From: a virus | IMG/VR virus record: IMGVR_UViG_3300043540_000173 | Coordinates: 1 to 27,418 of that record | Length of the DNA stretch: 27,418 nt | Strand: one strand, 5' to 3' | In this document: positions 3,686 through 27,303 of the stretch, one piece after another | Numbering within the stretch: position 1 is the first letter of the stretch | Layout of the letters: each line of letters opens with the position of its first letter | The notes under the pieces: generated by a model | Databases searched by the model: none | Seen by the model: the letters and a program-made list of their open reading frames with translations, nothing else | What the model was told of the DNA's origin: nothing | Program-made: the position numbers and the translations under genes

Positions 3686-5176
3686 CTAAATCTGAGGGGG
3701 CGAGTCGACTGCTTTGGTTTTTAAAAGAACTCGGTTATTCACTATTTCCAAAGCATCACGCACCCTTACACCTCGTTGTTTCAGTAGTCTTTCTTTTATT
3801 TCGTCTAAAGTTTCGGCCATCGGCAAGTCGGTATGTTGCCTAGTCTGCTTGATATGGCGGACATATTTATCCATTCCTTTTTCTGAAAAATATCTTCTAA
3901 CGATACATTCTCTATGAGCCATTCTTTGTATCCAGTTGGCAATGCTTAAATATTGACCTCTGTCGGTTTCAATGATTGGGTTTGAGTTATCTGACCTTGC
4001 TTCCATCTTTACCGTTTGTGGCTCGTATTTAAAAAGTTGTTGTGCTATTTCATAGGCTTCGTCAAAGTTTGAGATTGCAAAACAGACAATATTGCCGATT
4101 GACCAAATCTGCGATCTCAAAGTCGGTGCAAGCTGGGATAAAGACTGAAGAACAATGTAAAGCTCTAATTTTCTGGAGCGATAAAGTGGTGAGAGCATCC
4201 CTACTTCCTCTGCCATACCAGGAATTGATAAAAGCGAATAAACCTCATCCATCACGAGTGCTACAGGTTTATCTTCTGGGTTGCCAGGCGTCCTTTTGTT
4301 GATTTCAGACATAATCAGCGAATAGGCTTGAGTAAATAGATAGTGCTGGGTATTTTTCTGATTTATCAATCTTGCTCCGTTGACAAGAACGATTAATCCA
4401 TTTTTGATTGCTTCCTTCGGTGTCCACCCTGGGCGGTAAAAACCTAGCCTTGCTTTTGTTTCTCTTGGCTCAACAGCTCCAAGTAAAGCAAGAACAGCGT
4501 AGCTTCTAAGTTCTCTCTCCTGTTGCTTTATTTGAAGATATACATTTGAAAAGAACCATTTTGCTTCTGGCACTTTATAGCCATAAATCCCGATTGCATT
4601 TTTAAGTAGTGGTAAAACAGTCATTAGCCTTTTGGCTTCTGTTACTTGCCAAGTCTCATCGTGTTCGTTTGTAATTGCAGTTAGAAGCCTGAAAACTTGA
4701 GGCGCAATTTCTCTTAATCCGAGTCCTGCTAAAAATGGAGCGTCTTTAACCAATTCAGGTGCAAGTTTGACCAAGTTGTTTGCCACCCTTTGCACTTGTT
4801 CCTCATATGAGCCACCATACAAAGGGGAAAATTCAGGCATCGGTATTATCCATTCAGGATGTCCAAGCTCATCATAGACTACTCGTTTTAAAAGTCTTTC
4901 TCTTATTTCGGTTGGTTGTCTTGCAATCAAAGTCAAAATCATATCGGAGATTGAGCCTGACCAATCAAGAACAAATATGGCTCTATCTTGAAATGTCATT
5001 GCATAGTCCACCAAATGCCGTGCAAGAGAGGATGTTTTTCCTGTTCCTTGCCTTCCAATATAAAGCGTTCCCATCGTCAATCCTTCGTAAGGCAAATCAT
5101 CCCCATCTCCATTCGCCATTGAAGGAGATAAACTCTTCTCAAAAAACAGGGAAAAAATATCGCTCCACTTAAGCAT
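3686..5176 (-). CDS. VirD4/TraD-like (HerA-FtsK class) DNA-pumping ATPase
   Basis: The product has 496 residues. Walker A is GRQGTGKTS (41-49) and Walker B is VALVMDE (305-311, Asp310/Glu311). A later block RSRKLELYIVLQSLSQL (333-349) matches the conserved Gln-containing motif of type IV coupling proteins. These ATPases form hexamers that drive DNA through a membrane channel in conjugation. The usual N-terminal membrane anchor is absent here, so the protein is probably soluble or uses the two small membrane proteins encoded upstream. The start overlaps the end of the replication-relaxation gene by 8 bp (ATGCTTAA). It is distinct from the phage packaging ATPase, which is encoded at 17035-18528. 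A role in transfer, partitioning or DNA entry is inferred. Confidence 0.8.
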   Translation of the reverse strand: MLKWSDIFSLFFEKSLSPSMANGDGDDLPYEGLTMGTLYIGRQGTGKTSSLARHLVDYAMTFQDRAIFVLDWSGSISDMILTLIARQPTEIRERLLKRVVYDELGHPEWIIPMPEFSPLYGGSYEEQVQRVANNLVKLAPELVKDAPFLAGLGLREIAPQVFRLLTAITNEHDETWQVTEAKRLMTVLPLLKNAIGIYGYKVPEAKWFFSNVYLQIKQQERELRSYAVLALLGAVEPRETKARLGFYRPGWTPKEAIKNGLIVLVNGARLINQKNTQHYLFTQAYSLIMSEINKRTPGNPEDKPVALVMDEVYSLLSIPGMAEEVGMLSPLYRSRKLELYIVLQSLSQLAPTLRSQIWSIGNIVCFAISNFDEAYEIAQQLFKYEPQTVKMEARSDNSNPIIETDRGQYLSIANWIQRMAHRECIVRRYFSEKGMDKYVRHIKQTRQHTDLPMAETLDEIKERLLKQRGVRVRDALEIVNNRVLLKTKAVDSPPQI

Positions 5177-6762: not shown

Positions 6763-6834
6763 CACAAAAATCCCATCAATCACAACTGAATTTTGCATAA
6801 ATCTTTTAGGCAAAAATCAATTGAGGAGCGAAAA

Positions 6835-8034
6835 ATGAGTGAGAGAAAAATTAGGGAAGGTTTGGAAAAGCTTAGTAAAGACCAAGCAGTAGTACTTTAC
6901 TGGACTTTACAGGGCAAAAGCCCCGATTGGATTGCAGGAGAAATCCTAAAAAAAGAGAGAAAAACCTATGACTACCATATGGGGGAGATTTACACCTACT
7001 TAGGTTTTACAGAAAAAGAACATTGGACTGTCAAGCGGGAGAGATTAATTCGGGAGGTCTACCCGATCTTTAGTGAATTTGTAAAAACTAAAGACGATTT
7101 AGAGAAATGGCAGACAATTAAATACGAGTATGCAAAAGTAAAACCGCCACAAGAACAGTCATCAATTCCTGAAGAACCACAGATTTTTATCAAAGACGAA
7201 ACTCCTGCTAGTGGTCAAAAACAACAAAGCCAAACACAACAACCAAGACAACCAACACAAAGAAAGACATCTTGGCCTCTTGTCTTATTGGGTTTTGGTG
7301 CTGGCGCTTTAATTTCTTGTATTGTTATCGGTGTAATATTTACGGCTTTTTTCAGAAATCGTTCCGCAAGCCTAATGCCCACCTTTACAGAAGTACCGAC
7401 ATCGCCAGCAAAACTAGAAAACGTCTCTACAGCCGAGATTACTGATACTCCTCGAATCATTATTAATCCTACTCCCACACTGCCTTCAAATCTTCTATTT
7501 TATGATAACTTTGATAATGGAATAAGTCCACAATGGGAACAAATAGTGGGAACATTTGCATCAGTAAATGGGCGACTTTCTGTAATTGAAGGACAGCCTT
7601 TTTTGTTTAGAGGTAAAAAACTTGCAGTAATGAAAATAGGCGATAATAGTTGGAAAAGATACATCGTTGAGGCATCAATGTATCCTATCTATGGTAGTAA
7701 TTCCAATTGTATGGGCGACGGAATAGGAGTATCAGTTGTGGACCTTAATAATATGCTATTTTTTAATTTGGGTGCGGATGGTAACAATTGGTGGGAAATT
7801 ATAGAGAATTCAGAATGTAAAACAATAGAAAAGTCTTATAATTATAAGAATTATGACGCAAAATTTTTAGGAGTGAGGCTCATTGTTGATAACGGAAAAT
7901 TCACTGCCTTCGTCAATGAAATTAAATCATCAGAAATCATCATTGAGAATGACAAATTTAAATCTGGTGGCGTCATTCTTGTAGCTAGTGAAGATTCAGA
8001 TTGGGATAACTTTTTAGTCTATCCAATACCTTAA
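6835..8034 (+). CDS. One-component membrane regulator: LuxR-type HTH, one TM span, lectin-like outer domain
   Basis: The product has 399 residues from ATG 6835 (GAGGAG upstream). Residues 10-58 (LEKLSKDQAVVLYWTLQGKSPDWIAGEIL...YDYHMGEIYTYLGF) match a LuxR/GerE-type helix-turn-helix. A Gln/Pro-rich linker follows, then a single membrane segment (about 147-173), then a Thr/Pro-rich stalk with NPTPTLP, and from 221 on a domain opening LLFYDNFDNGISPQWEQIVGTF and ending SDWDNFLVY. This last part resembles concanavalin/LamG-like or DUF1080-type sugar-binding folds. The layout is like ToxR or CadC: a DNA-binding head inside, a sensor outside. It is one of few plus-strand genes and sits alone between the early and lysis blocks, so it looks like cargo (lysogenic conversion). 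Confidence 0.65.
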   Translation: MSERKIREGLEKLSKDQAVVLYWTLQGKSPDWIAGEILKKERKTYDYHMGEIYTYLGFTEKEHWTVKRERLIREVYPIFSEFVKTKDDLEKWQTIKYEYAKVKPPQEQSSIPEEPQIFIKDETPASGQKQQSQTQQPRQPTQRKTSWPLVLLGFGAGALISCIVIGVIFTAFFRNRSASLMPTFTEVPTSPAKLENVSTAEITDTPRIIINPTPTLPSNLLFYDNFDNGISPQWEQIVGTFASVNGRLSVIEGQPFLFRGKKLAVMKIGDNSWKRYIVEASMYPIYGSNSNCMGDGIGVSVVDLNNMLFFNLGADGNNWWEIIENSECKTIEKSYNYKNYDAKFLGVRLIVDNGKFTAFVNEIKSSEIIIENDKFKSGGVILVASEDSDWDNFLVYPIP

Positions 8035-8818: not shown

Positions 8819-9676
8819 TCACCTCCCTAAAATACGCATAGTGATTGCCGTAATCAATTCTGAAAGGGGTATCTTATTCAAGACGTCTATATTATCGTCT
8901 TTAAGTCGTTTAATTTCATCATCTTTGGCTAGTATAGCGGCTTGTGCCTTTTCCAACTCCTTCTGTGTTCTTTCAAGTGTTATATTTGTAAGTCTTAATT
9001 GATATTCAAATTCGTCTTTCGCTTTGTTTGCGTCATTTAACGCTTTCTTTAAGTCTTCTTTTTCTCCTTCCAGTTTTTCTACTTTTTCTGTCAACATAGA
9101 AACTTCTGTGAATTTAGGCCCAACTATTTCATTCAGTCTTTTAATTTGTTCACGAAGGTCGGTAATATCTTTGTCATATTTAATTGCCTTTTCCCAAAAG
9201 TCACGAAACTCTCCTTCCCTATCAAGGGACAAACCTCGCTCTTGAAGCAATGTTTTGAACCATTCGGGTATTTCCATAGATTTAATTATCGGTTTTAGCC
9301 AGCCCAAAACTCCTGTATAAGTATGCTCCTGTATATGACATAGTGTTCCTGTCGGGTAGTTCTGGTCAAAGCTCTTAAACTTCTTTGTATCTCCTTCTAA
9401 AAAGATAGCAACGTGTCCATACTTACCTATTTTCGTTCCCCAAATTACAATGTCTCCTTTTTCAGGCACTCCGTATGGCGTGTTCTCAATTCTCTTGTAA
9501 TACTCGGGTAAATATGTATCCCAAATATCTTTAGCTCCCTCAACTGGCGGGCTTTGAGGAAAGCCCAAGACTTCCTTGACATATTGCCGATATAGATCAG
9601 TACATTGGGTTGAGAACTTATTGTCATAGTCAATCCCCTTGCCGTTGTATTTTTCGACAAATTCATCAAGTGTCAT
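8819..9676 (-). CDS. CHAP-domain endolysin with C-terminal coiled coil
   Basis: The product has 285 residues from ATG 9676. That start is favoured because it overlaps the stop of the small gene upstream as ATGA; an in-frame GTG at 9712 is less likely. Residues 1-140 form a CHAP amidase/peptidase domain: the nucleophile Cys25 in FSTQCTDLYRQYV, the catalytic His88 in KYGHVAIF, and a polar third residue in FDQNYP (Asp104/Asn106). It would cut peptidoglycan peptides during lysis. From about 165 to 265 the protein is a long coiled coil instead of the SH3 or LysM wall-binding domain usual in CHAP endolysins. It could therefore multimerise, or be a virion-associated hydrolase. Confidence 0.85.
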   Translation of the reverse strand: MTLDEFVEKYNGKGIDYDNKFSTQCTDLYRQYVKEVLGFPQSPPVEGAKDIWDTYLPEYYKRIENTPYGVPEKGDIVIWGTKIGKYGHVAIFLEGDTKKFKSFDQNYPTGTLCHIQEHTYTGVLGWLKPIIKSMEIPEWFKTLLQERGLSLDREGEFRDFWEKAIKYDKDITDLREQIKRLNEIVGPKFTEVSMLTEKVEKLEGEKEDLKKALNDANKAKDEFEYQLRLTNITLERTQKELEKAQAAILAKDDEIKRLKDDNIDVLNKIPLSELITAITMRILGR

Positions 9677-10614: not shown

Positions 10615-12561
10615 TTAAAAACTACCCCAACCAGCTATATAAAAATAGTCACCATTAACAAGAGTAAATGGACTTGATGCATTAAAAGCGTATGGACTCG
10701 CACTATAATAAAGCCAACCACCTGTGCCCTGTGAGCCAATAACGCTTCTCCCATAAGGAGATGCGGCTTGGTTGACCATACCAGTAAATACTGCGTCGGT
10801 AGATGATATCGGGTGGCCAGCAAAGTAATAAGCATAACCAGCATCTCCAAAGGTGGTAGTGCTTCCAGCTGTAACCTTAATATAATAATAAACAGCATTG
10901 CCAACAACCATCATTTTTCCAACGATTGTGCCATTTCCAATACTTGGTGGAGTCCCGCTTTTACTCCAAGTTGGTGTCCAATTAAAAAAGGTTGGATATC
11001 CTTGTGGATTAGCCTGATATGAGTAATAGGGATTAGTAATAGTAGCATTTGCTAGTGTATAATCTGACCCACCCGTAATGTTGACGGTTGTATTAGTAGA
11101 GAATGAAGACGAAGTAACTACAAAATATTTATCTGTTGTTTGAGTTAATTTTATTCTTGTGCCTTTAGTAAAGATTGCTGTTCTATCTACCCCTGAAATA
11201 GTAAATGAAGTTGCAGAAGCATACGTCCAAGTGTCTCCCGATGAAACCCAACCATTAGTGTTAATGGGGTCAATATAGGATGAGCCATCATATAATTTGA
11301 CTCTCCCAGTTCCCTTACCCTTGAGATATAAATTGATGTTGGTATCATCTCCCGAAGCCTCAATGGTTGGATTTACGCCTGTTGCCGCATTTGTGATTTT
11401 GATTTGATTTACAGCCGATGTGGTAGCAGGCGTTTCAATGATTTCATTACCGTTAGTGTCAAGGATGGCTGTTTCTATTTTAGGAGAGGTGAGTTTTTTG
11501 TTGGTTAATGTCTGTGTATCGGTTGTTCCTACCAGATTTCCACTTACTCCGTGAGTAGAGGTTGAAGATGCGTGAGTTGAAACAGCTCCTGCTGACTCGA
11601 AGCTTGAGGCTGAAAACCCACTATCTTTTATTAGCTTTCCAGTCGTGCCATCAAAAGCTGCAAAGTTATTATTTGTTGCCGATGAGGGACCAACGACATC
11701 TCCAGCACCACTTCCATCTGTTCCTTTATTGCCAGTCCGAGAGAAAAGAACGGACAGAATATCACTTGCCGAGAAACTTCCAGACGAGGAGACGTGGCTG
11801 ACAGTTACTTTCCTGTATCCCGTTCCATTTACAACCAAACCTGTTATGTTGAAAACTGCGAAATTGTTCTCTGCTCCCCTTTTGGTAATTTTTATTATCC
11901 CCTTGACATTTGGGTCTGTCGAGTCGTCCCAAGTATCAATAAAAGAGGAAACATTACCACCGCCGTTTTCAAGGTTATCTATAAAAATCTGAGTAACAGA
12001 GGATATAGTGGCATTGTTAAATTTAAGCTGACCATTTCCAGGGTCGCTATCGGTTGTATCAGTATTAAAAGCATAAAGAAGTCCAGCCGAAACTCCAGCA
12101 TCTCCTTGAGGCCCCTGAGGCCCTTGCACCCCTTGTGGCCCCTGCGGGCCTTGTGATCCCGTGTCTCCCTTTTGAGCTATTAATTCCCAGTAAGAGGTGT
12201 TTGTCGGGGTTTGTCCAGTATTTGCTTGTATACAAACATAAGATGAGCCATTATAATAAACGGCGTCATCAACAGAATAAGCAGTTGAGTTGGACCAAGT
12301 TCCTCGCCAATTTAGTCCTTTATCTCCTTTGTCCCCCTTGTCTCCTTTTAAGCCTTGAGGCCCTTGAGGCCCCTGATCACCAGTATTACCTTTTTGTGCC
12401 ACCAATCGCCAGTAGGTAGTATTAGTTGGTGCTGTTCCTACAGGCGGATATAATATGCAGGTATAAGTTGAGCCATTATAGGAGACAGTATCGCTAACCT
12501 CGTATTGAGTTGAGGCATTATATTCTCCTTTCCACAGCTCTGACCATTTTTTGTCTTGCAT
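10615..12561 (-). CDS. Collagen-like tail fibre / receptor-binding protein
   Basis: The product has 648 residues. Two related modules of about 45-50 residues (6-55 and 84-128) share W.G.W/Y...Y...D.V.YNGS.Y.CI.....G..PTNT.YW.L.AQKG, resembling carbohydrate-binding CBM5/12-type folds. Each is followed by Gly-X-Y collagen-like repeats (58-82, GPQGPQ and GDKGDKGDK; and 132-156). A long beta-rich region and an aromatic C-terminal domain ending DYFYIAGWGSF follow. Collagen repeats form trimeric shafts, so this is probably a trimeric fibre binding the host surface. The ATG follows a 19-base stem-loop with no ribosome-binding site, and the gene has its own extended -10 promoter (12562-12595). No chaperone gene follows. 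Confidence 0.8.
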   Translation of the reverse strand: MQDKKWSELWKGEYNASTQYEVSDTVSYNGSTYTCILYPPVGTAPTNTTYWRLVAQKGNTGDQGPQGPQGLKGDKGDKGDKGLNWRGTWSNSTAYSVDDAVYYNGSSYVCIQANTGQTPTNTSYWELIAQKGDTGSQGPQGPQGVQGPQGPQGDAGVSAGLLYAFNTDTTDSDPGNGQLKFNNATISSVTQIFIDNLENGGGNVSSFIDTWDDSTDPNVKGIIKITKRGAENNFAVFNITGLVVNGTGYRKVTVSHVSSSGSFSASDILSVLFSRTGNKGTDGSGAGDVVGPSSATNNNFAAFDGTTGKLIKDSGFSASSFESAGAVSTHASSTSTHGVSGNLVGTTDTQTLTNKKLTSPKIETAILDTNGNEIIETPATTSAVNQIKITNAATGVNPTIEASGDDTNINLYLKGKGTGRVKLYDGSSYIDPINTNGWVSSGDTWTYASATSFTISGVDRTAIFTKGTRIKLTQTTDKYFVVTSSSFSTNTTVNITGGSDYTLANATITNPYYSYQANPQGYPTFFNWTPTWSKSGTPPSIGNGTIVGKMMVVGNAVYYYIKVTAGSTTTFGDAGYAYYFAGHPISSTDAVFTGMVNQAASPYGRSVIGSQGTGGWLYYSASPYAFNASSPFTLVNGDYFYIAGWGSF

Positions 12562-12595
12562 AAGCGTTTACACAACGCTTTTATTGATTATAACA
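12562..12595 (-). promoter_or_regulatory. Extended -10 promoter with 5'-terminal stem-loop leader (tail fibre)
   Basis: On the minus strand, TGTTATAAT (-10 hexamer at 12587-12592) is followed, after CAATAA, by AAGCGTT-GTGTA-AACGCTT (12580 down to 12562). This is a perfect 7-bp stem whose last base is immediately before ATG 12561. The expected start site is about 12580, so the entire untranslated leader would be the stem-loop. No Shine-Dalgarno is present. The promoter overlaps the end of the preceding gene. Confidence 0.75.
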
Positions 12596-13722: not shown

Positions 13723-14880
13723 TTAAAAGCCGCTTACATCCTGCTCGAGTTTTACAGCCAAGACCGCTCCATCGTCAAACATCTTAGCTCCAACTCCGAT
13801 GATACCTTTCGGCAAATCGGCGAAGCCTTTTTCTTTGTCGGCGACTTTGAGGTCAACAAACTGCAAAACCAAGTCGATAGCCCCTCGGATCATAAAGACG
13901 GCTTGCTGTTTCTGGTTTGTCCAACCATCAGCAGAGGCAGTCAGAGTTTCGCTGACTGATATATCACCAAAGCCTGTGAAGGCCATAGCAGCATCAGCTG
14001 TGCAGCGAACATATCTCTTTCTCCTCAGGATAAACTTATCCCTAATGCTGAGGTCAACATAAGTTAAACCAGCTCCAGAGCCACCTTCTACTGCAGCCTT
14101 CAAGTTTGCTCTTGAAGCAGCAGCGTTAGCACCAATCAGGACATTGCCAGGAGTTGTACCCAAAGTAGATACGAAAGTGAATTTGACGCCAGAAATCGTT
14201 ACGGTATCTCCGTTGGTTGGATTAGTGGCAATGTTCAATGTGGCGCTCCAGGGAAGGTTGTTGTTTTCAACAACAGTCCAACCCATCCAAGGTCCGACGA
14301 CACCGTTTTCCAGTGTCTCGTCTCCGAGTCGGCTCTCTCTGTCAGCTTTAGCCCTCCTCAGTTTTGCAACTGTTCTTGGGCCAAGAACTGCAGCCCTTAG
14401 AGAAGTCTCATAAGGGGCATCGAATGCACCGAGCTTACCTTCTGCCTCCTCAAGGATATCAAGGATATTTGCACTCGTAACAGTTACAGGCGAACCTGAA
14501 ATCGAGTGGAAGGCATTGGAGATTTGACCCATATAAACCTGCTCCACTCTGTTCATCAAACCTCTGCGGATTGATTCAAGAGAGTGATTGAGTAAGTCAT
14601 ATGGAGTCTGATTTTTCTCGGTGATGTCGATCTCCTCAGCAGCGTATTCGAATGTATCAACCTCAAGAGTTTGCTTTGAAGCCTTCTTTTGGTCGAATGT
14701 AATATCGTTGTGAGGAGTATAAGTTCCAGTCTGCGGATGAGAGAGAATCGGCTTGTGAGCCTTGCGACCATCCTGACGGATTATGTTTTCGAGCGACTGG
14801 TTAGCCAAATACACAGCAGTATTAGCCGTGTATAGATCGGCTTGCAGATCACCCCAAAACTCTTGTCTTATGTCATCCAT
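13723..14880 (-). CDS. Major capsid protein (HK97-fold type) with inserted beta domain
   Basis: The product has 385 residues. The N-terminal region (1-130) has acidic helices followed by VEQVYMGQISNAF. Residues 140-210 (ILDILEEAEGKL.AFDAP....RAAVLGPRTVAKLRR...) read like the long-helix and core segments of phage coat proteins. Residues about 215-320 are an inserted beta domain: GDTVTISGVKFTFVSTLGTTPGNVLIGANAAASRANLKAAVEGG is a recurring decoration-type insert. The core resumes at about 325 (QAVFMIRGAIDLVLQFVDL) and ends with GFADLPKGIIGVGAKMF.DGAVLAVKL. It follows the scaffold gene and has GGGGGTGA before the ATG. The shell-building role is inferred from position, size and fold pattern. Confidence 0.75.
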   Translation of the reverse strand: MDDIRQEFWGDLQADLYTANTAVYLANQSLENIIRQDGRKAHKPILSHPQTGTYTPHNDITFDQKKASKQTLEVDTFEYAAEEIDITEKNQTPYDLLNHSLESIRRGLMNRVEQVYMGQISNAFHSISGSPVTVTSANILDILEEAEGKLGAFDAPYETSLRAAVLGPRTVAKLRRAKADRESRLGDETLENGVVGPWMGWTVVENNNLPWSATLNIATNPTNGDTVTISGVKFTFVSTLGTTPGNVLIGANAAASRANLKAAVEGGSGAGLTYVDLSIRDKFILRRKRYVRCTADAAMAFTGFGDISVSETLTASADGWTNQKQQAVFMIRGAIDLVLQFVDLKVADKEKGFADLPKGIIGVGAKMFDDGAVLAVKLEQDVSGF

Positions 14881-14971: not shown

Positions 14972-15673
14972 TTACTGCTTCTGTTGAGCTAGATACTTTT
15001 GCCTCGCAGCCCTTGCTTCCTTCCAGGCTTTAATGCCTTCCTCAGTGTTAAAGTCAAAATCCGCAGGATTCAAAGGCTTTGAGGGATCATAATTCATAGC
15101 ATACGACCCCTTGTTTGAGCGCTTAGGAGTTGCGTTTTTTATCCGCTCTTCCCTTTCAATTTCTTCCTTTCTCGCTTGGATATAAGGAAGTTGCGCTGCC
15201 TCTCTTACAGAAATACCTTTTAATTTTGCTAAATCTTTGACTTCGGCTTTCAGCTCGTCAGGTAAAGCAAGTTCTTCAAGTTCTCTTGCCTCCAAACGCT
15301 CCGCAAGCTTCTTTTCAATCAAAGATTCAATGTCAGGTGTTTCCTGTGTTTGGGTGTTACCCTCCTTAGGATTTTCCTTCGGTTTCTCGGAAGCTTTTAG
15401 GGCTTTTTCTCTCCAGTTAATCTTTTGCTTAATCGCTCCAGATAACTTTTCCCTGTAAGATTTTTCCCTTTCGACGAGTTTGTCAAGAAGCTCGCTTTGT
15501 TCCTCAGGGTCTATCCCTAATTCCCCAGCGATTTTACTTCTGATCTCGTCTTCAGCCACTTCCTTTTGAAACTCCTTGTCGGCTTCTAGCTCTTCAGGAG
15601 TTACTTTTAAATCTTCTTCTTTATTCTGTTGTGTTTGATCGTCCATAGGACCAAATTTTTGCCAGTATGGCAT
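14972..15673 (-). CDS. Capsid scaffolding protein
   Basis: The product has 233 residues. It is very rich in Glu and Lys, helical and coiled-coil throughout, with Pro/Glu/Thr-rich breaks (about 105-115). It includes SELLDKLVEREKSYREKLSGAIKQKINWREKALKA and LEARELEELALPDELKAEVKDLAKLKGISVREA. A short C-terminal part with DYDPSKPLNPADFDF is followed by the basic stretch EARAARQKYLAQQKQ, as expected for the coat-binding end of scaffolds. Its position directly before the major capsid gene is the usual one. ATG 15673 has no Shine-Dalgarno; a small hairpin touches it, and an intrinsic terminator lies 21 bp upstream, so expression may need read-through or antitermination. Confidence 0.75.
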   Translation of the reverse strand: MPYWQKFGPMDDQTQQNKEEDLKVTPEELEADKEFQKEVAEDEIRSKIAGELGIDPEEQSELLDKLVEREKSYREKLSGAIKQKINWREKALKASEKPKENPKEGNTQTQETPDIESLIEKKLAERLEARELEELALPDELKAEVKDLAKLKGISVREAAQLPYIQARKEEIEREERIKNATPKRSNKGSYAMNYDPSKPLNPADFDFNTEEGIKAWKEARAARQKYLAQQKQ

Positions 15674-15693: not shown

Positions 15694-15717
15694 TCAAAAA
15701 ACCGCCCTTTGGCGGTC
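15694..15717 (-). terminator. Intrinsic terminator upstream of the scaffold gene
   Basis: On the minus strand ACCGCC-AAAG-GGCGGT (15716 down to 15701) is a perfect 6-bp GC-rich stem with a 4-base loop. It is followed by a run of T (overlapping the stem end) and then GATTT. This is a textbook Rho-independent terminator oriented to end the leftward transcript starting near 15802. Confidence 0.9.
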
Positions 15718-15802
15718 AAGTCGGGGAGCAAGAAAGCGTTGTGACGAACTTGCACCCCTACTAAACCGTCAAGCTTCACAACGCTTTCTATGTCAATTTG
15801 CT
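15694..15802 (-). ncRNA. Putative small RNA or attenuated leader with 14-bp arms
   Basis: A transcript from the extended -10 promoter at 15809-15817 would start near 15802 and end at the terminator at 15694-15717, giving about 105 nt with no convincing reading frame. Its main structure is a perfect 14-bp stem (15776-15789 with 15731-15744). Inside it, after an internal loop, CTTG/CAAG pairs around a 17-base apical loop containing GTAGGGGTG. The 3' arm includes CACAACGCTTT, an 11-base perfect complement of the leaders at 12562-12580 and 22834-22855. It may act in trans on those mRNAs, or in cis as an attenuator of the scaffold/capsid operon. No known RNA family is recognised. Confidence 0.6.
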
Positions 15803-15808
15803 GATTTA

Positions 15809-15817
15809 ATTATATCA
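15809..15817 (-). promoter_or_regulatory. Extended -10 promoter of the putative small RNA
   Basis: On the minus strand TGATATAAT (hexamer at 15809-15814) matches the extended -10 consensus perfectly. It is the same as the boxes upstream of the 22831, 18913 and 12561 genes. There is no good -35 at 17 bp; a TTGACA lies too close. It lies just downstream of the stop of the preceding gene. Confidence 0.7.
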
Positions 15818-15822
15818 GATTG

Positions 15823-16206
15823 TCAAGACAAATGAAACACATATCCACAAGACGGACATCTGATACCTTCTTCAACAAATTTCATTTCAACTCTATAATC
15901 ATTTTTCTTTGCAAATTCCTCTGCAAGTTTTGCCCACTTCTCTCCGTGCATCTCTAACGAGTATCTTCTTACTTCCCTTCCTTCTTTGTTTATAATAACT
16001 GCTGTATTGTAAGAAACCTCTTTGGCGGGAGCAGTCGCTTCGGGTTCACTAGACATTTTTTCTGATTGAGCTAGTGCCTCATCGTTAGCCACCACATCGC
16101 TAGAGGCTTCTTTCTCTTTTATTGCTTTTTCAAGGTCTGAACGGGAGACACCAATGTAAGGAAGTCCAAGCTCTTTGGCTTTTTTCTGAAGGTCTTTATA
16201 ATCCAT
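15823..16206 (-). CDS. SAP/Rho-N-like protein with C-terminal zinc knuckle
   Basis: The product has 127 residues. Residues 1-32 (YKDLQKKAKELGLPYIGVSRSDLEKAIKEKE) match the helix-extended-loop-helix of SAP/HeH/Rho-N domains, common in small phage proteins encoded near the capsid genes. The middle (35-60) is low-complexity Ser/Glu/Ala. The C-terminal part is a folded region with YNTAVIINKEGREVRRYSLEMHGEKWAKLAEEF, ending CPSCGYVFH, a single CxxC plus His. Head-tail joining or nucleic-acid binding is possible. ATG 16206 has no ribosome-binding site; TTGACA and TATAGA lie upstream with 15-bp spacing as a weak promoter. Confidence 0.6.
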   Translation of the reverse strand: MDYKDLQKKAKELGLPYIGVSRSDLEKAIKEKEASSDVVANDEALAQSEKMSSEPEATAPAKEVSYNTAVIINKEGREVRRYSLEMHGEKWAKLAEEFAKKNDYRVEMKFVEEGIRCPSCGYVFHLS

Positions 16207-17034: not shown

Positions 17035-18528
17035 TCACAATCCATAGTTTTTTTGAATAATACCCTTTCTTGCTTCTCTTTGTTGCCTTAATACCGCTTG
17101 TTTATACTCGTCAATCGGTGCTTCTGCTATCTCAAGTTGCATTGCTAAACTATCAAGCGTGTCATCGTGTGCTCCTTTAGGAAAAACTACCATTTCTTTC
17201 TCTAAATCTCCGCATTCTCCTTCAATGTGGAAAATTCCTCCTGAAGCGTAGCGTGGTATAAGCCCTCTAATCCTTACCTCTTTTTGAGTCTTGTTGTGTT
17301 TTAATGGCACTATGTTTGGAAACTTATCTCGCCTTAAACATTCCTCATCTAAAAATGGTTTAATTGCTTTCAAGTAAACTGTCTCCTCAATTCCGATTTT
17401 CTCAAATCCTTCATCGTGCAAAGCGAAGATATAATTTATCAGCTCTTTTGAGTCAAAATGCACTCTCATTGCTTTTAAATTCCATTTATTTTGTTTATCA
17501 ACATAATTCCTGACAATTCCTGTATAGTCATTGTCTGCTTCTTTTCCACCTGGGTCGATTGTGGCAAATTTACGGGTATCTAAAGCCTCAACCTCAGCCC
17601 AAGACCGATATTTTATCCAAGTCTCTTTGAATTCTTGATTTTCTGAAGTAATAGGTGTGCCTTGATACAAAGCTGAAAACTCATAAGGTCCAAGAGTGCT
17701 TTCTGTTCTCCTTATCTTCTCAATGGGAAACTTTTCTGGCCATAATGCTTCCCCTTTTTTCCTAAAAGTCTCATCTTCAGTTGCAATTGCAGGAAAGTTG
17801 ATAATCTTCCATTTATCATAATTTTCAGTATCTTCTGCCTCATCCTGTTTTTGCTTTTCAATTAGTCTCCCCACAAGGTCATCGGTGTGCCAGCGGGTGT
17901 TGATAACAATAATTGCAGTTGCACCTTCTTGTCGGGTATAGAAAGTAGAGCGAAACCAATCCCACCTTGAATTACGGATCACTTCCGACTCTGCTTCCTC
18001 TCGGTTCTTGAAAATATCATCAACTATCCCAATCTTAAAACCTGAACCAGTAAAAGCACCTCCAGCACCAGTAGCCATATAGCTTCCACCTTCTCCTGTC
18101 TTCCAATATCCTTTTGCTTTGGTATCAGCTCTTAATCGAGTTGAAAATATTTTCTGGTATTGAGGCGTTTGCATTACATCTCTTGTCTCTTGACCAAATT
18201 TAGTGGCAAGCTCTCCTGAGTAAGAGGCTACAATAATCGGCCAATCGGGATGGTGGCCAAGAACCCAAGCGGGAAACTTGATGGTGGCTATGTTGCTTTT
18301 TCCGTGCCGTGGTGGACATTGAATGATAATTCTTGCATCTTCTCCCCTCTCTACTTTCTCAAGAGCAGATTGCAAGATAGTAGCCAACGACTCGTGAAAC
18401 CAAGTATCCTGATAATTGCGGTCTATGGCTATCGCAAAATCAATCAGATTTTTCTTTGCTTGATGTATTACTATCGCCTCGCCCTTTTGCAAGGATACGC
18501 TCGGCGATTCTTTGGATTTGTTTTTCAT
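17035..18528 (-). CDS. Terminase large subunit
   Basis: The product has 497 residues and is the ATP-driven DNA packaging motor and nuclease. ATPase domain: Walker A-like CPPRHGKSN (71-79), Walker B GIVDD (167-171) and the coupling-type motif NTRWHTDDLV (210-219). RNase H-like nuclease domain: Asp325 in FATIDPGG, Glu381/Glu382 in GIEETVY and Asp455/Asp456 in HDDTLDSLA. Length is normal for the family. ATG 18528 lies well inside the 3' end of the small-subunit gene (89-bp overlap) and has no ribosome-binding site. A TTG at 18531 precedes it. Translation may therefore be coupled, or the true start may be an unusual codon downstream. Confidence 0.95.
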   Translation of the reverse strand: MKNKSKESPSVSLQKGEAIVIHQAKKNLIDFAIAIDRNYQDTWFHESLATILQSALEKVERGEDARIIIQCPPRHGKSNIATIKFPAWVLGHHPDWPIIVASYSGELATKFGQETRDVMQTPQYQKIFSTRLRADTKAKGYWKTGEGGSYMATGAGGAFTGSGFKIGIVDDIFKNREEAESEVIRNSRWDWFRSTFYTRQEGATAIIVINTRWHTDDLVGRLIEKQKQDEAEDTENYDKWKIINFPAIATEDETFRKKGEALWPEKFPIEKIRRTESTLGPYEFSALYQGTPITSENQEFKETWIKYRSWAEVEALDTRKFATIDPGGKEADNDYTGIVRNYVDKQNKWNLKAMRVHFDSKELINYIFALHDEGFEKIGIEETVYLKAIKPFLDEECLRRDKFPNIVPLKHNKTQKEVRIRGLIPRYASGGIFHIEGECGDLEKEMVVFPKGAHDDTLDSLAMQLEIAEAPIDEYKQAVLRQQREARKGIIQKNYGL

Positions 18529-18913
18529 CAAAGGTATGGGTTATTTCCCCTTTTAGTTTTGTCTCCTCCTCCATTCCGTGATTTGCAGACAAAATTAGTT
18601 TGGTGATGGTTGGGTTATAGTATCCTGCTAATCCTTCGTCTATCAGTCGCTGAAATTGCTCTTGTTTTATCAGTTCCAATCCCTTTGCTACTTTAGGGTG
18701 AGCTTCTTCCCAATTAAATAGTGTTTGTTTGGTAACGCCCAAAAAACGAGCAAAGCCTTCAATTGTTGGAAGTTTTACTCTGAGACGGACAACGGGAGAG
18801 TGCTTGCCATCCCTCACAACTTCAGTCTCGTCTTGTCGTGAAGCAAGGTATTTTTCTACTTTTTTGAGAAATGTCTTACTGTTGAATTTTGTTGGTCTGC
18901 CACCTTTTTTCAT
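18440..18913 (-). CDS. Terminase small subunit
   Basis: The product has 157 residues. The N-terminus is basic (KKGGRPTKFNSKTFLKKVEKYLASR). Residues 50-75 hold a helix-turn-helix (LPTIEGFARFLGVTKQTLFNWEEAHPKVAKGLELI), which would recognise the packaging site. A helical middle (GLAGYYNPTITKLILSANHGMEEETKLKGEITHTFDEKQIQRIAERIL) is typical of terminase small subunits, including the NP-TKLILSAN-GM motif. It lies directly before and overlaps the large-subunit gene. ATG 18913 is touched by a stem-loop leader with an extended -10 promoter. The product forms a ring that loads the large subunit onto DNA. Confidence 0.9.
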   Translation of the reverse strand: MKKGGRPTKFNSKTFLKKVEKYLASRQDETEVVRDGKHSPVVRLRVKLPTIEGFARFLGVTKQTLFNWEEAHPKVAKGLELIKQEQFQRLIDEGLAGYYNPTITKLILSANHGMEEETKLKGEITHTFDEKQIQRIAERILAKGRGDSNTSSKEKSD

Positions 18914-18964
18914 AGCGTTATGCTGGGTTTGATAACCTTTCCAACGCTTTAGTCTATTATAGCA
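18914..18964 (-). promoter_or_regulatory. Extended -10 promoter with stem-loop leader (terminase)
   Basis: On the minus strand TGCTATAAT (hexamer 18956-18961) is followed, after AGACTA, by AAGCGTTGG near the expected start site (about 18949). The 5' AGCGTT (18943-18948) pairs with AACGCT (18914-18919), which immediately precedes ATG 18913. The 23-base loop has an inner GGTT/AACC hairpin and contains GGAAAGG. This is the long-loop version of the leaders at the 12561 and 22831 genes. Confidence 0.7.
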
Positions 18965-21403: not shown

Positions 21404-22831
21404 TTATGAATTAGTCATTTTCCAGCCGTTGACGGTATAAATCCATTTTTTACCAGTTGAGTCTTTCCATACTGTGCCAACACCGCCAGCAGGTGAAAAT
21501 GCAGGTGCGCCTGCCATCGTTCCTATTGAATTGCCAAACACCTCATCCCATATAAGGTCTACATTGACTTGTGGAATTTTTGTTTCCGTTGTCGTTGGCG
21601 TTCCTCCGCTTACTTTGTATCCTGCTTCCCTAAGTTTATCTCTTAAGAACGAGGTTGTATCAAAGCTACTTTCTCCAGTAACTGCTTTCCTGTAATAGTA
21701 TTTGTTCCCTTTGCTGTCTGTAATCGTAATAAGTTGATTTTGAGGAACACTTTTGGGATCAACGACGGCAACATATCCCGAGGTTGACATTTTATTTGAT
21801 AAATCTCTGACTTCATTAGCGTATTGAACATCGGCAAGTTTTTTGTTGACTGTTTCTATACTATCGTTGAGCGTTACTCCTGATTGAGCCAACAGTAGGG
21901 CTGTATCAGGATTAACCATCAATTGCTTGATATAATCTGCTGTTTTAGTGGTCTGCTCTAGGTCAAACTTGAGTAGATTGATTTGTTCTTTTGCTACTTC
22001 TTGACTCTTGTTATCAAGATTAATAATGTCTCGGTTTGCTAAATTTAAAACTGTATCATAGTAAGCTAGTCTATCTTTTCTATCCTGAGCTATTGCGTTT
22101 ACCGACCTATCTATTGATTGATAGGCATTTGCAAGATAAGTATTTTGCAGGCTTACTACAGCATTAATAACTCCTGCTCGTGCCGCAATGTCGTCCATTG
22201 TCTTTTGGATGCGTGGGTTACGGATTGCAGCCAAGCCTGTCACTTCTTTTTGTTGTCTGATAAGTTGATTTCCTTCTGTTAAGAGTTGATCTAATTCGTC
22301 TAAAAGTTGTCTTTGTTGAGATAAAACTACATCCGTTCCTAATCTTTCCCTTTCTGTTTTTTCTAAAGTTTCCCTAAATGGGGTTGTCAAGGTGCTTACC
22401 CCCTGCACAGCCTCAGCTTCTCTTTTCTTTGCTGCTTCAAGTTCGGCCTGCGTTTGAGCTTGGTCTTGTGCAAGTCTTTGCTCTAAGGCTTTCCTTGCAG
22501 CTTCAACTTCGGCATTTAATCCTGAAACATAATTTTGTGTTGAGCCCGTGATATAAGATGGAGTTACAGGAGCTTGAATGTTGGCTACACTCACTTTGTC
22601 CAAGTAGTCATTGAATTGTTGAAGTGAAACACCTTGAGCTGCAGCAGATTGAGCTTTTACTTCCTGCGAAACCGCTTGTCCTGCTCCTTGTTGGTTGGAC
22701 CAAGGATGAATAACACCTGGATCTGAAAACGTCCCATTCCAATATTGACGGCCTTGATACCATCCCCCTGTTTGAAAACCACCTGCTGGAGGTTTTATTC
22801 CCAATTGTTCTGGTGTGTAAATTCCCGACAT
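21404..22831 (-). CDS. Coiled-coil virion protein, second ejection-protein candidate
   Basis: The product has 475 residues. The N-terminus is Gly/Pro/Gln-rich (about 1-60). The centre (about 100-330) is a long Ala/Gln/Glu coiled coil (EVEAARKALEQRLAQDQAQTQAELEAAKKREAEAV; then LDELDQLLTEGNQLIRQQKEVTG). The C-terminal region (about 340-475) is globular with SKGNKYYYRKAV and a terminal DSTGKKWIYTVNGWKM. Paired with the 730-residue gene downstream, it fits the podovirus pattern of two or three internal proteins, but no sequence family is recognised. It has its own extended -10 promoter, and a stem-loop ends two bases before the ATG without a ribosome-binding site. Confidence 0.6.
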   Translation of the reverse strand: MSGIYTPEQLGIKPPAGGFQTGGWYQGRQYWNGTFSDPGVIHPWSNQQGAGQAVSQEVKAQSAAAQGVSLQQFNDYLDKVSVANIQAPVTPSYITGSTQNYVSGLNAEVEAARKALEQRLAQDQAQTQAELEAAKKREAEAVQGVSTLTTPFRETLEKTERERLGTDVVLSQQRQLLDELDQLLTEGNQLIRQQKEVTGLAAIRNPRIQKTMDDIAARAGVINAVVSLQNTYLANAYQSIDRSVNAIAQDRKDRLAYYDTVLNLANRDIINLDNKSQEVAKEQINLLKFDLEQTTKTADYIKQLMVNPDTALLLAQSGVTLNDSIETVNKKLADVQYANEVRDLSNKMSTSGYVAVVDPKSVPQNQLITITDSKGNKYYYRKAVTGESSFDTTSFLRDKLREAGYKVSGGTPTTTETKIPQVNVDLIWDEVFGNSIGTMAGAPAFSPAGGVGTVWKDSTGKKWIYTVNGWKMTNS

Positions 22832-22833
22832 AT

Positions 22834-22870
22834 GCGTTGTCTAACACAACGCTTTTATTAAATTATATCA
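22834..22870 (-). promoter_or_regulatory. Extended -10 promoter with 5' stem-loop leader (475-aa virion gene)
   Basis: On the minus strand TGATATAAT (hexamer 22862-22867) precedes TTAATAAAAGCGTTGTG. GCGTTGT and ACAACGC (22846-22852 with 22834-22840) form a perfect 7-bp stem with loop GTTAG. The stem ends two bases before ATG 22831. The expected start site is about 22855, two to three bases before the stem. No Shine-Dalgarno is present. Confidence 0.75.
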
Positions 22871-25638: not shown

Positions 25639-27303
25639 TTACTGGTTAGCTACCACTTCCTGCTGATTACCTGCTGGTGTTCCCGATTCTGGTGCTCCGA
25701 TTTCTGGCGTCATTGTTGCTTGCCTTCCCGTTTTTGTCAAAGATTGCATTGGCTCTGCTGGCTTTTCCTCTCGTTTTGGTGGAATAGGAATATTGCGAAT
25801 TCTATAAATCTGGTCAAGTATCCAACTAATTCTTTCTGGGTCTTGTTCAAGTCCAACCAATTGAACCAAATCCTGAACTTGTTCTGTAAATTCGTAATTC
25901 TCACCTGTTATGGTTACAAATAATCTCGGTAAAACACCATCCCAAATCTCTTTTGAATTTTTAATTGCTGGGTCAACCTTTCTAATTTCGTCAAGTTTTT
26001 CTTGCTTAATTGCATCTGCTACTTCTTTGGTGTGCGGGCCAATAGCAACTAAATTCTGTGCATACCAGTTTTCAACAAGAATTTGCCTCAGTTGGTCTAA
26101 AACTTCAGTATCGCCTGTAAACATAAACATTTTCTCGCCTGATAAATCCTTAACTAACTCTGGTAAAACCCAATCCCTGAATACCTGCTTATACGGAATA
26201 GTAATTTTCTGGCGGTTTAGGACAAACAACTTTCCTGCATTTTCGTCCATTAGAAGTCCCATTCTGAATGGTGTTCCTGATGGCAAAGTTTCACCTCTCA
26301 CAATCTCATAGGAATTAGACAATCTATCGGCGTCATTCATCAATCTGTTCCAATCTGCAATGAGTTGGTCTAACCCTCGCATTCTGACATCTACTTGATC
26401 TAAATCTTCAGTAATAATTACATCTCCATTGTCTAAATCTGCTCTTATATTCTGCAACACTTTTGAGTCTTTGCTTCTGAAGATAACCTTTGATGCCCAC
26501 TCAAGTCCTCTTGCCAACTGATTACCGATTTCGTTGGCCCTAATCTGGTGGTCAAAGAGAAGCTCATACATTCCAACCCGCCAAAATCTACCTTCGTATC
26601 TACCACGATGAGCATAAAGGTAATAATCAGATAACTTACCTGACAATCTCTCAGCAAAGAGGGTAAACTTTTCACCCGTCCCATTTTCTTTCAAACCTGC
26701 AACTACAACTTTTGCAAGAAAGTATTTATTTTCGTCTCCACCTTCTAATCCTCTTACCTGATTGAATTCTTTTTCATTCACTTCACCTGTAAATTCAAAA
26801 ATCTCATATCTTTTCTGTGATGAAGGAATAGGAGTAGTCATCTCTGAAGCTTTAAATGATTTGTTTCCTAATTCCTTTATAACCCTATCAACAACATCCT
26901 GATCCCATTCAGTCATTCTTTTGAGTTGTGAAGCTGTCATTTCGTGGCGTTCGATAATGTCTGTATCATCTACCGTTTCTGCTCTTTGGTTGGTAATATA
27001 AGTATTAAGCGGATCAACAATCTCATATCCTCCTTTTATTCTTTTAAAACCGACATTGCCGTTGGCTACAAATTCTTCTACGGCAGTTTTTAGTTTGATG
27101 GCCTCTTGATTTTTGTTCATCCAAGATTTTAAAGAGGCGTTGGCAATGAAAACTGCTGCAAAGTCCTTAATCGGATTTTGAGAGAAAATCATAATATGCT
27201 TAGTATCAAACCTCAAATTCTTGACTTCCCCGTCAACTCGTGGAGAGATAATGTCAAAGTAGTAGTTATAGCTCAAATCAGAGTTAATCTTTGAGGTGGT
27301 CAA
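25639..27303 (-). CDS. Portal protein (main part; possible frame disruption at N-terminus)
   Basis: The product has 554 residues. N-terminal SYNYYFDIISPRVDGEVKNLRFDTKHI, then GNVGFKRIKGGYEIVDPLNTYITNQRAETVDDTDIIERHEMTASQLKRM, fits the clip and wing regions of podovirus-type portals (the DP.N...IE.HEMT..QL pattern). The middle contains YYLYAHRGRYEGRFWRVGMYELLFDHQIRANEIGNQLARGLEWASK, and the crown-like tail is Pro/Glu-rich. The portal is the dodecameric vertex through which DNA is packed and ejected. The frame opens at TTG 27303, only 9 bases past an in-frame stop, and overlaps the TGA of an upstream frame. Upstream residues look like more portal sequence (see 27300-27418), so the N-terminus may be incomplete. 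Confidence 0.75.
   Translation of the reverse strand: MTTSKINSDLSYNYYFDIISPRVDGEVKNLRFDTKHIMIFSQNPIKDFAAVFIANASLKSWMNKNQEAIKLKTAVEEFVANGNVGFKRIKGGYEIVDPLNTYITNQRAETVDDTDIIERHEMTASQLKRMTEWDQDVVDRVIKELGNKSFKASEMTTPIPSSQKRYEIFEFTGEVNEKEFNQVRGLEGGDENKYFLAKVVVAGLKENGTGEKFTLFAERLSGKLSDYYLYAHRGRYEGRFWRVGMYELLFDHQIRANEIGNQLARGLEWASKVIFRSKDSKVLQNIRADLDNGDVIITEDLDQVDVRMRGLDQLIADWNRLMNDADRLSNSYEIVRGETLPSGTPFRMGLLMDENAGKLFVLNRQKITIPYKQVFRDWVLPELVKDLSGEKMFMFTGDTEVLDQLRQILVENWYAQNLVAIGPHTKEVADAIKQEKLDEIRKVDPAIKNSKEIWDGVLPRLFVTITGENYEFTEQVQDLVQLVGLEQDPERISWILDQIYRIRNIPIPPKREEKPAEPMQSLTKTGRQATMTPEIGAPESGTPAGNQQEVVANQ

Follow-up and report, generated by a model that had tools for sequence, protein, structure and literature searches.

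The window, by which we mean the whole stretch of DNA analysed here, is a 27,418-base IMG/VR virus record of an uncultivated phage and is probably a fragment of a genome. All genes under study lie on its minus strand (Table 1), and the small terminase, large terminase, major head protein and fibre are recognised by PHROGs. The 475-aa protein had been called an ejection protein in an earlier, sequence-only reading of this DNA, a label for which the family libraries give no support. Elsewhere in the record are a tRNA gene near its end (552-624, +), a 413-aa open reading frame opposite to the minus-strand gene array and without a Pfam match (6793-8034, +), and a 496-aa protein (3686-5176, -) that weakly matches ATPases of the TraG/TraD and terminase types and is distinct from the true large terminase at 17035-18531.

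Between a putative RNA element and the major head protein gene lies a gene whose true start is probably ATG 15646 and not ATG 15673, because the close relative L124 has TAG at the 15673 position; in what we call the scaffold/major-head unit, the label "scaffold" is given by position only. The start codon of this gene lies inside a short conserved hairpin (GTCC-TAT-GGAC; 15640-15673, -) that is preceded by a second hairpin of the GCCCTACGGGC type; both are found in relatives with or without the RNA element, and the pair is a possible translational control site.

Table 1. Positions of the genes, tagged leaders and RNA segments in the window
Feature	Position	Strand	Basis or content
Gene orthologous to the 594-aa portal-like gene of G029/G030	25639-27303		
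Tagged leader, 475-aa gene	22829..22870	-	TGATATAAT, tag 22854-22845, hairpin, ATG 22831
475-aa protein gene, virion region	21404-22831	-	
Tagged leader, small terminase	18911..18964	-	TGCTATAAT, tag 18949-18942 (AAGCGTTG), hairpin, ATG 18913
Small terminase gene	18440-18913	-	PHROGs
Large terminase gene	17035-18531	-	PHROGs
Extended -10 (TGATATAAT) 5' of RNA element	15809..15817	-	sequence
RNA element	15787-15707	-	contains exact complement of leader tag
Segment A, 5' copy of leader tag (AAAGCGTTGTGA)	15776..15787	-	varies among relatives
Segment B, 5' side of long covarying stem	15749..15774	-	
Segment A' (CACAACGCTT), apical loop, complements leader tags	15734..15743	-	nearly invariant
Segment B', 3' side of long stem	15707..15732	-	end overlaps terminator 5' arm
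Intrinsic-terminator-like hairpin, GACCGCC-AAAG-GGCGGTTTTTT	15696..15717	-	sequence and fold
Gene 3' of RNA element, 5' of major head protein	14972..15646	-	start inferred from relative L124
Major head protein gene	13723-14880	-	PHROGs
Tagged leader, fibre gene	12559..12595	-	TGTTATAAT, tag 12580-12571, hairpin, ATG 12561
Fibre gene	10615-12561	-	PHROGs

The element has the segment order A-B-A'-B', in which A and A' can form a simple hairpin and B and B' a much longer imperfect stem. When the long stem is drawn, A' lies in an apical loop of roughly 14-20 nt, separated by 3-6 nt from B and by 0-2 nt from B', and presents the complement sequence CACAACGCUU. Most members have a -10-like promoter 5' of the element, and about half have a U-run terminator. 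The earlier reading had described a small RNA on the plus strand, with A/A' as its hairpin and the complement in its 3' arm: the complement is indeed there, but its conserved form is the apical loop of the larger stem, and the near-palindromic hairpin spells the same letters on either strand. Gene direction and synteny, along with the promoter and the U-run terminator, assign the RNA to the minus strand, which is also mildly favoured by the excess of G-U over A-C cells (20 vs 10) in the B/B' alignment. Fold prediction ranks A/A' first in some members, including the window, and B/B' in others; since a linker of 1-8 nt keeps A from the loop once the whole B stem has formed, these should be alternative folds, and the RNA is probably bistable, with A either paired to the loop strand or displaced by the full stem. 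A full pseudoknot of both stems was rejected on geometry (1-8 nt linker vs a stem of ~20 bp). A search with the 4227 covariance models of Rfam, at gathering and permissive thresholds, gave no match within 15700-15820, even with E allowed to reach 10.

Segment A has exact counterparts elsewhere in the window. AAAGCGTTGTG occurs at 12571-12581, 22845-22855 and 15777-15787, all on the minus strand, and its complement lies on the same strand at 15733-15743, so that both the 11-base complementarity proposed for two leaders and the leader sense sequence proposed for the 5' arm of the element are borne out by exact match. The 9-base match to a third leader, that of the small terminase, is likewise present (AAAGCGTTG) but at 18942-18950 (-), one base from where it had been placed. 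The core AAGCGTTG(TG) stands just 3' of three extended -10 promoters, those of the 475-aa gene, the small terminase and the fibre: each tag lies 5-7 nt past TGnTATAAT, closes a hairpin abutting the ATG start codon that follows, and is accompanied by no Shine-Dalgarno sequence in these three leaders. The reversed tag pattern has 0 occurrences in the whole record. When energies of pairing with the loop of the RNA were scanned along the window, the two exact leaders ranked, among minus-strand sites, just below the element's own 5' copy and an off-target site at 9049, which is as good as the leaders.

The earlier reading had itself offered common descent of a mobile stem sequence as an alternative, and an 11-nt match is short, with 2-mismatch tag matches only mildly over-represented in the window; relatives argue strongly against either this or chance. 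About 40 contigs were fetched by terminase and head-protein searches. Counting the window, 15 distinct sequences carry the element at a single syntenic position, and other relatives lack it there; the position was identified as the gap between genes orthologous to 15823-16206 and 14972-15646 or, in G006, by the element itself. A covariance model search returned one copy per element-bearing phage, with E no worse than about 1e-12, and no copy in the relatives that lack the element. In the alignment of the 15 sequences, 88.5% of B/B' cells are paired, 12 of the 18 core pairs have changed on both sides, and double-change cells number 49 vs 19.7 in shuffles; the covariation score of 0.484 falls to 0.243 in shuffles and to 0.184 or less when the strands are slid, which also lowers pairing to at most 48%. 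Double changes in A/A' come mainly from the G029/30 lineage, with a single outer-pair case, and the other departures arise through A.

Tag and element also occur together. Element-bearing phages hold 40 copies of AAGCGTTGTG in 309 kb, 27 of them promoter-proximal and the remainder mostly the reverse reading of A', vs 1 copy in about 300 kb of element-less relatives, with 0 promoter-proximal. Element-bearing and element-less phages are intermixed on the head-protein tree, where near neighbours differ in the element (G029/30 and G015, G004 and G017, G006 and G005/G036), so that the link between tag and element is not just a property of one clade; by parsimony the label changes at least 6 times, of which well-supported branches force only two, on a tree of partial contigs from phages that exchange modules. 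G011-G013 have the element, and no tagged leader was found in their (partial) contigs. Over viral contigs, a stricter promoter-tag-hairpin pattern matched only members of this phage family and a looser promoter-plus-tag pattern gave mostly coding chance matches; over genome contigs, the pattern scan gave 52 scattered matches vs roughly 59 estimated by chance, and no host or prophage.

A joint change of loop and leader is seen in one lineage. The loop of G029 and G030 is TACAATGCTT, changed at two positions, and AAGCATTGTA occurs three times per contig: as the element's A, as the reverse of A', and in one leader. This only copy outside the element is promoter-proximal, with a TATAAT ahead of it and, 8 nt further on, the ATG of a gene for 594 aa that we call portal-like, a label that is tentative because the gene has a weak PHROG match to a head-tail adaptor. 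An exact copy at such a leader position has a chance probability of about 3e-4, for what is one evolutionary event in two close relatives. Stem covariation, tag co-occurrence and this estimate together contradict chance or a mobile stem, which we regard as highly improbable: the same loop is kept in elements with widely different stem sequences, and orthologous leaders keep the tag while their loops and 3' arms differ. The leaders share only about 10 nt, their loops and spacers being unrelated, and unlike copies of an insertion-like repeat they have no sequence in common beyond the pairing arm. Comparative evidence of this kind favours base-pairing in trans over both.

Thirty-one tagged leaders were collected from eleven phages; they precede the genes for the small terminase, an SU10-family adaptor (PF24175), the 475-aa protein, the fibre and others. 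All 31 can pair with the loop of their own phage (duplexes of -12.6 to -19.4 kcal/mol), so that the apical loop is complementary to the 5' region of phage mRNAs, as in RNAs of the c4 and sar kind; the leaders were found through the tag, and its conservation among them is thus partly due to how they were selected. The strand of the element that is conserved is the loop. A' carries no substitutions outside two lineages (G029/30 and G031), and A carries about six (in G002, G007, two in G010, one common to G013/G032, and in G034), several of which break the local A/A' pair; in G007, G010, G032 and G034 the leaders match A', partly by G-U, and not A. Independent divergence of arm and leaders, which would speak against the earlier proposal, was not seen when co-variation across relatives was checked.

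In most leaders the tag strand is also part of a local hairpin, which alone could conserve that strand. Taken with the position of the element directly ahead of the head-gene unit, the extended -10 promoter at the same spot in the element-less L217, L226 and L279, and a U-run at the end of only about half of the elements, this would fit a purely cis-acting arrangement, in which AAGCGUUGUG and its local complement form a 5' hairpin that stabilises or insulates the mRNA, the element is a leader or attenuator of the scaffold/major-head unit, and no pairing in trans takes place. We consider it unlikely. Five of the 31 leaders (the G010 and G034 adaptor, G032 terminase and G029/30 portal-like leaders) keep a complementary tag without a stable local hairpin; the leader of G029/30 changed along with the loop despite belonging to this group; the strand conserved in the element is the loop and not the 5' copy; and the tags vanish where the element is absent.

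The promoter-proximal position of every leader would also suit a DNA site, AAGCGTTGTG being bound by a phage transcription factor just past late promoters, with an inverted copy in the element; a changed factor could then explain the changed site in G029/30. This reading is improbable, as the tag stands anywhere between about 3 and 11 nt past the -10, all leaders have a single orientation, and the inverted copy falls exactly in the loop of a strongly covarying RNA stem. Internal tag changes are, moreover, mostly of a kind tolerated by G-U pairing (4 of 5 in the 31 leaders keep pairing in this way: A to G twice, C to T twice).

Two other roles were considered for the loop and its copy. A sponge or decoy for a tag-reading protein is disfavoured, the tag-like strand in the element being the variable one. 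A similar stretch, AAGCGUUGU, is present in 16S rRNA; pairing with that of the host is disfavoured too, G029/30 having changed both partners away from it.

We therefore propose, as the probable explanation of these sequence comparisons, that the element encodes a structured phage RNA acting in trans. The apical loop of its long imperfect hairpin would expose CACAACGCUU and pair with the AAGCGUUGUG tag at the 5' end of several virion-gene mRNAs, placing the tagged genes under common control: small terminase, SU10-type adaptor, 475-aa protein and fibre, with the portal-like protein in one lineage. The earlier idea that one RNA might pair with several virion leaders is in this respect supported by tag-element co-occurrence, one-sided conservation and the joint change in one lineage. 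We infer that such pairing occurs in the cell and affects the translation or the stability of the tagged mRNAs. Our slight preference is for repression or delay, because the paired region would lie about 8-40 nt or less from a start codon mostly without a Shine-Dalgarno sequence; activation, through opening of the hairpin that the leader itself forms, is nearly as probable. Leaders without a hairpin favour repression, with pairing 8 nt upstream of the ATG and inside the ribosome footprint, and leaders with a hairpin favour activation, since pairing would open it.

Leaderless mRNAs appear to be widespread in this phage family, judging from promoter spacing. In element-less phages, extended -10 sites that precede an open reading frame lie mostly 5-9 nt from its start, and in L128, L234, L235, L237, L283 and L284 many genes have their start codon 5-9 nt past a TGnTATAAT. 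Where phages lack the tag, the orthologues of tagged genes have no leader or almost none, and the tag thus resembles a regulatory leader that was added.

A role in cis is also possible for the element, which heads the scaffold/major-head unit at a spot where element-less relatives can have a promoter; in the window, B' overlaps the 5' arm of the terminator. A two-state attenuator that senses RNA is a further, rather unlikely reading, in which the tagged messages would be regulated in turn. Tagged mRNA bound to the loop strand would block the closed form made by the 5' copy and the loop strand, the long stem would then form and its outer part would take the 5' arm of the terminator in members that have one, and head-protein expression would thereby be matched to the other virion messages.

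Other phages have antisense RNAs that act on immunity or development genes, and a trans-acting RNA. The c4 RNA of P1 and P7, whose loop sequences are believed to complement a stretch of phage mRNA close to its ribosome-binding site (review PMC12197685), resembles the element in being a phage RNA with a loop complementary to a phage mRNA 5' region; c4 acts on ant (immunity), whereas here one loop would match a tag common to several virion transcription units. The sar RNA of P22 and OOP RNA of lambda are described there as small phage antisense RNAs on phage mRNAs (PMC12197685); they control the antirepressor or cII, in contrast to the multi-gene virion set with a repeated 5' tag proposed here. 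VpdS of phage VP882, a phage trans-acting RNA affecting phage mRNAs, is Hfq-dependent, linked to quorum-sensing control and about 50 nt long, and the passages on it describe no 5'-end tag shared by its targets (PMC12197685). Among open-licence papers, we found no description of a shared 5' virion-mRNA tag matched by one RNA loop. The element is thus a putative phage antisense-type RNA whose shared-tag design appears to be new.

Phage late genes are usually co-ordinated by transcription, through late activators, antiterminators or phage polymerases. If our proposal is true, terminase, adaptor, fibre and head genes would be co-ordinated post-transcriptionally via a private 5' tag, in phages that otherwise appear largely reliant on leaderless mRNAs. 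The system would constitute a regulon open to direct test, its partner bases being defined and G029/G030 serving as a naturally occurring compensatory variant.
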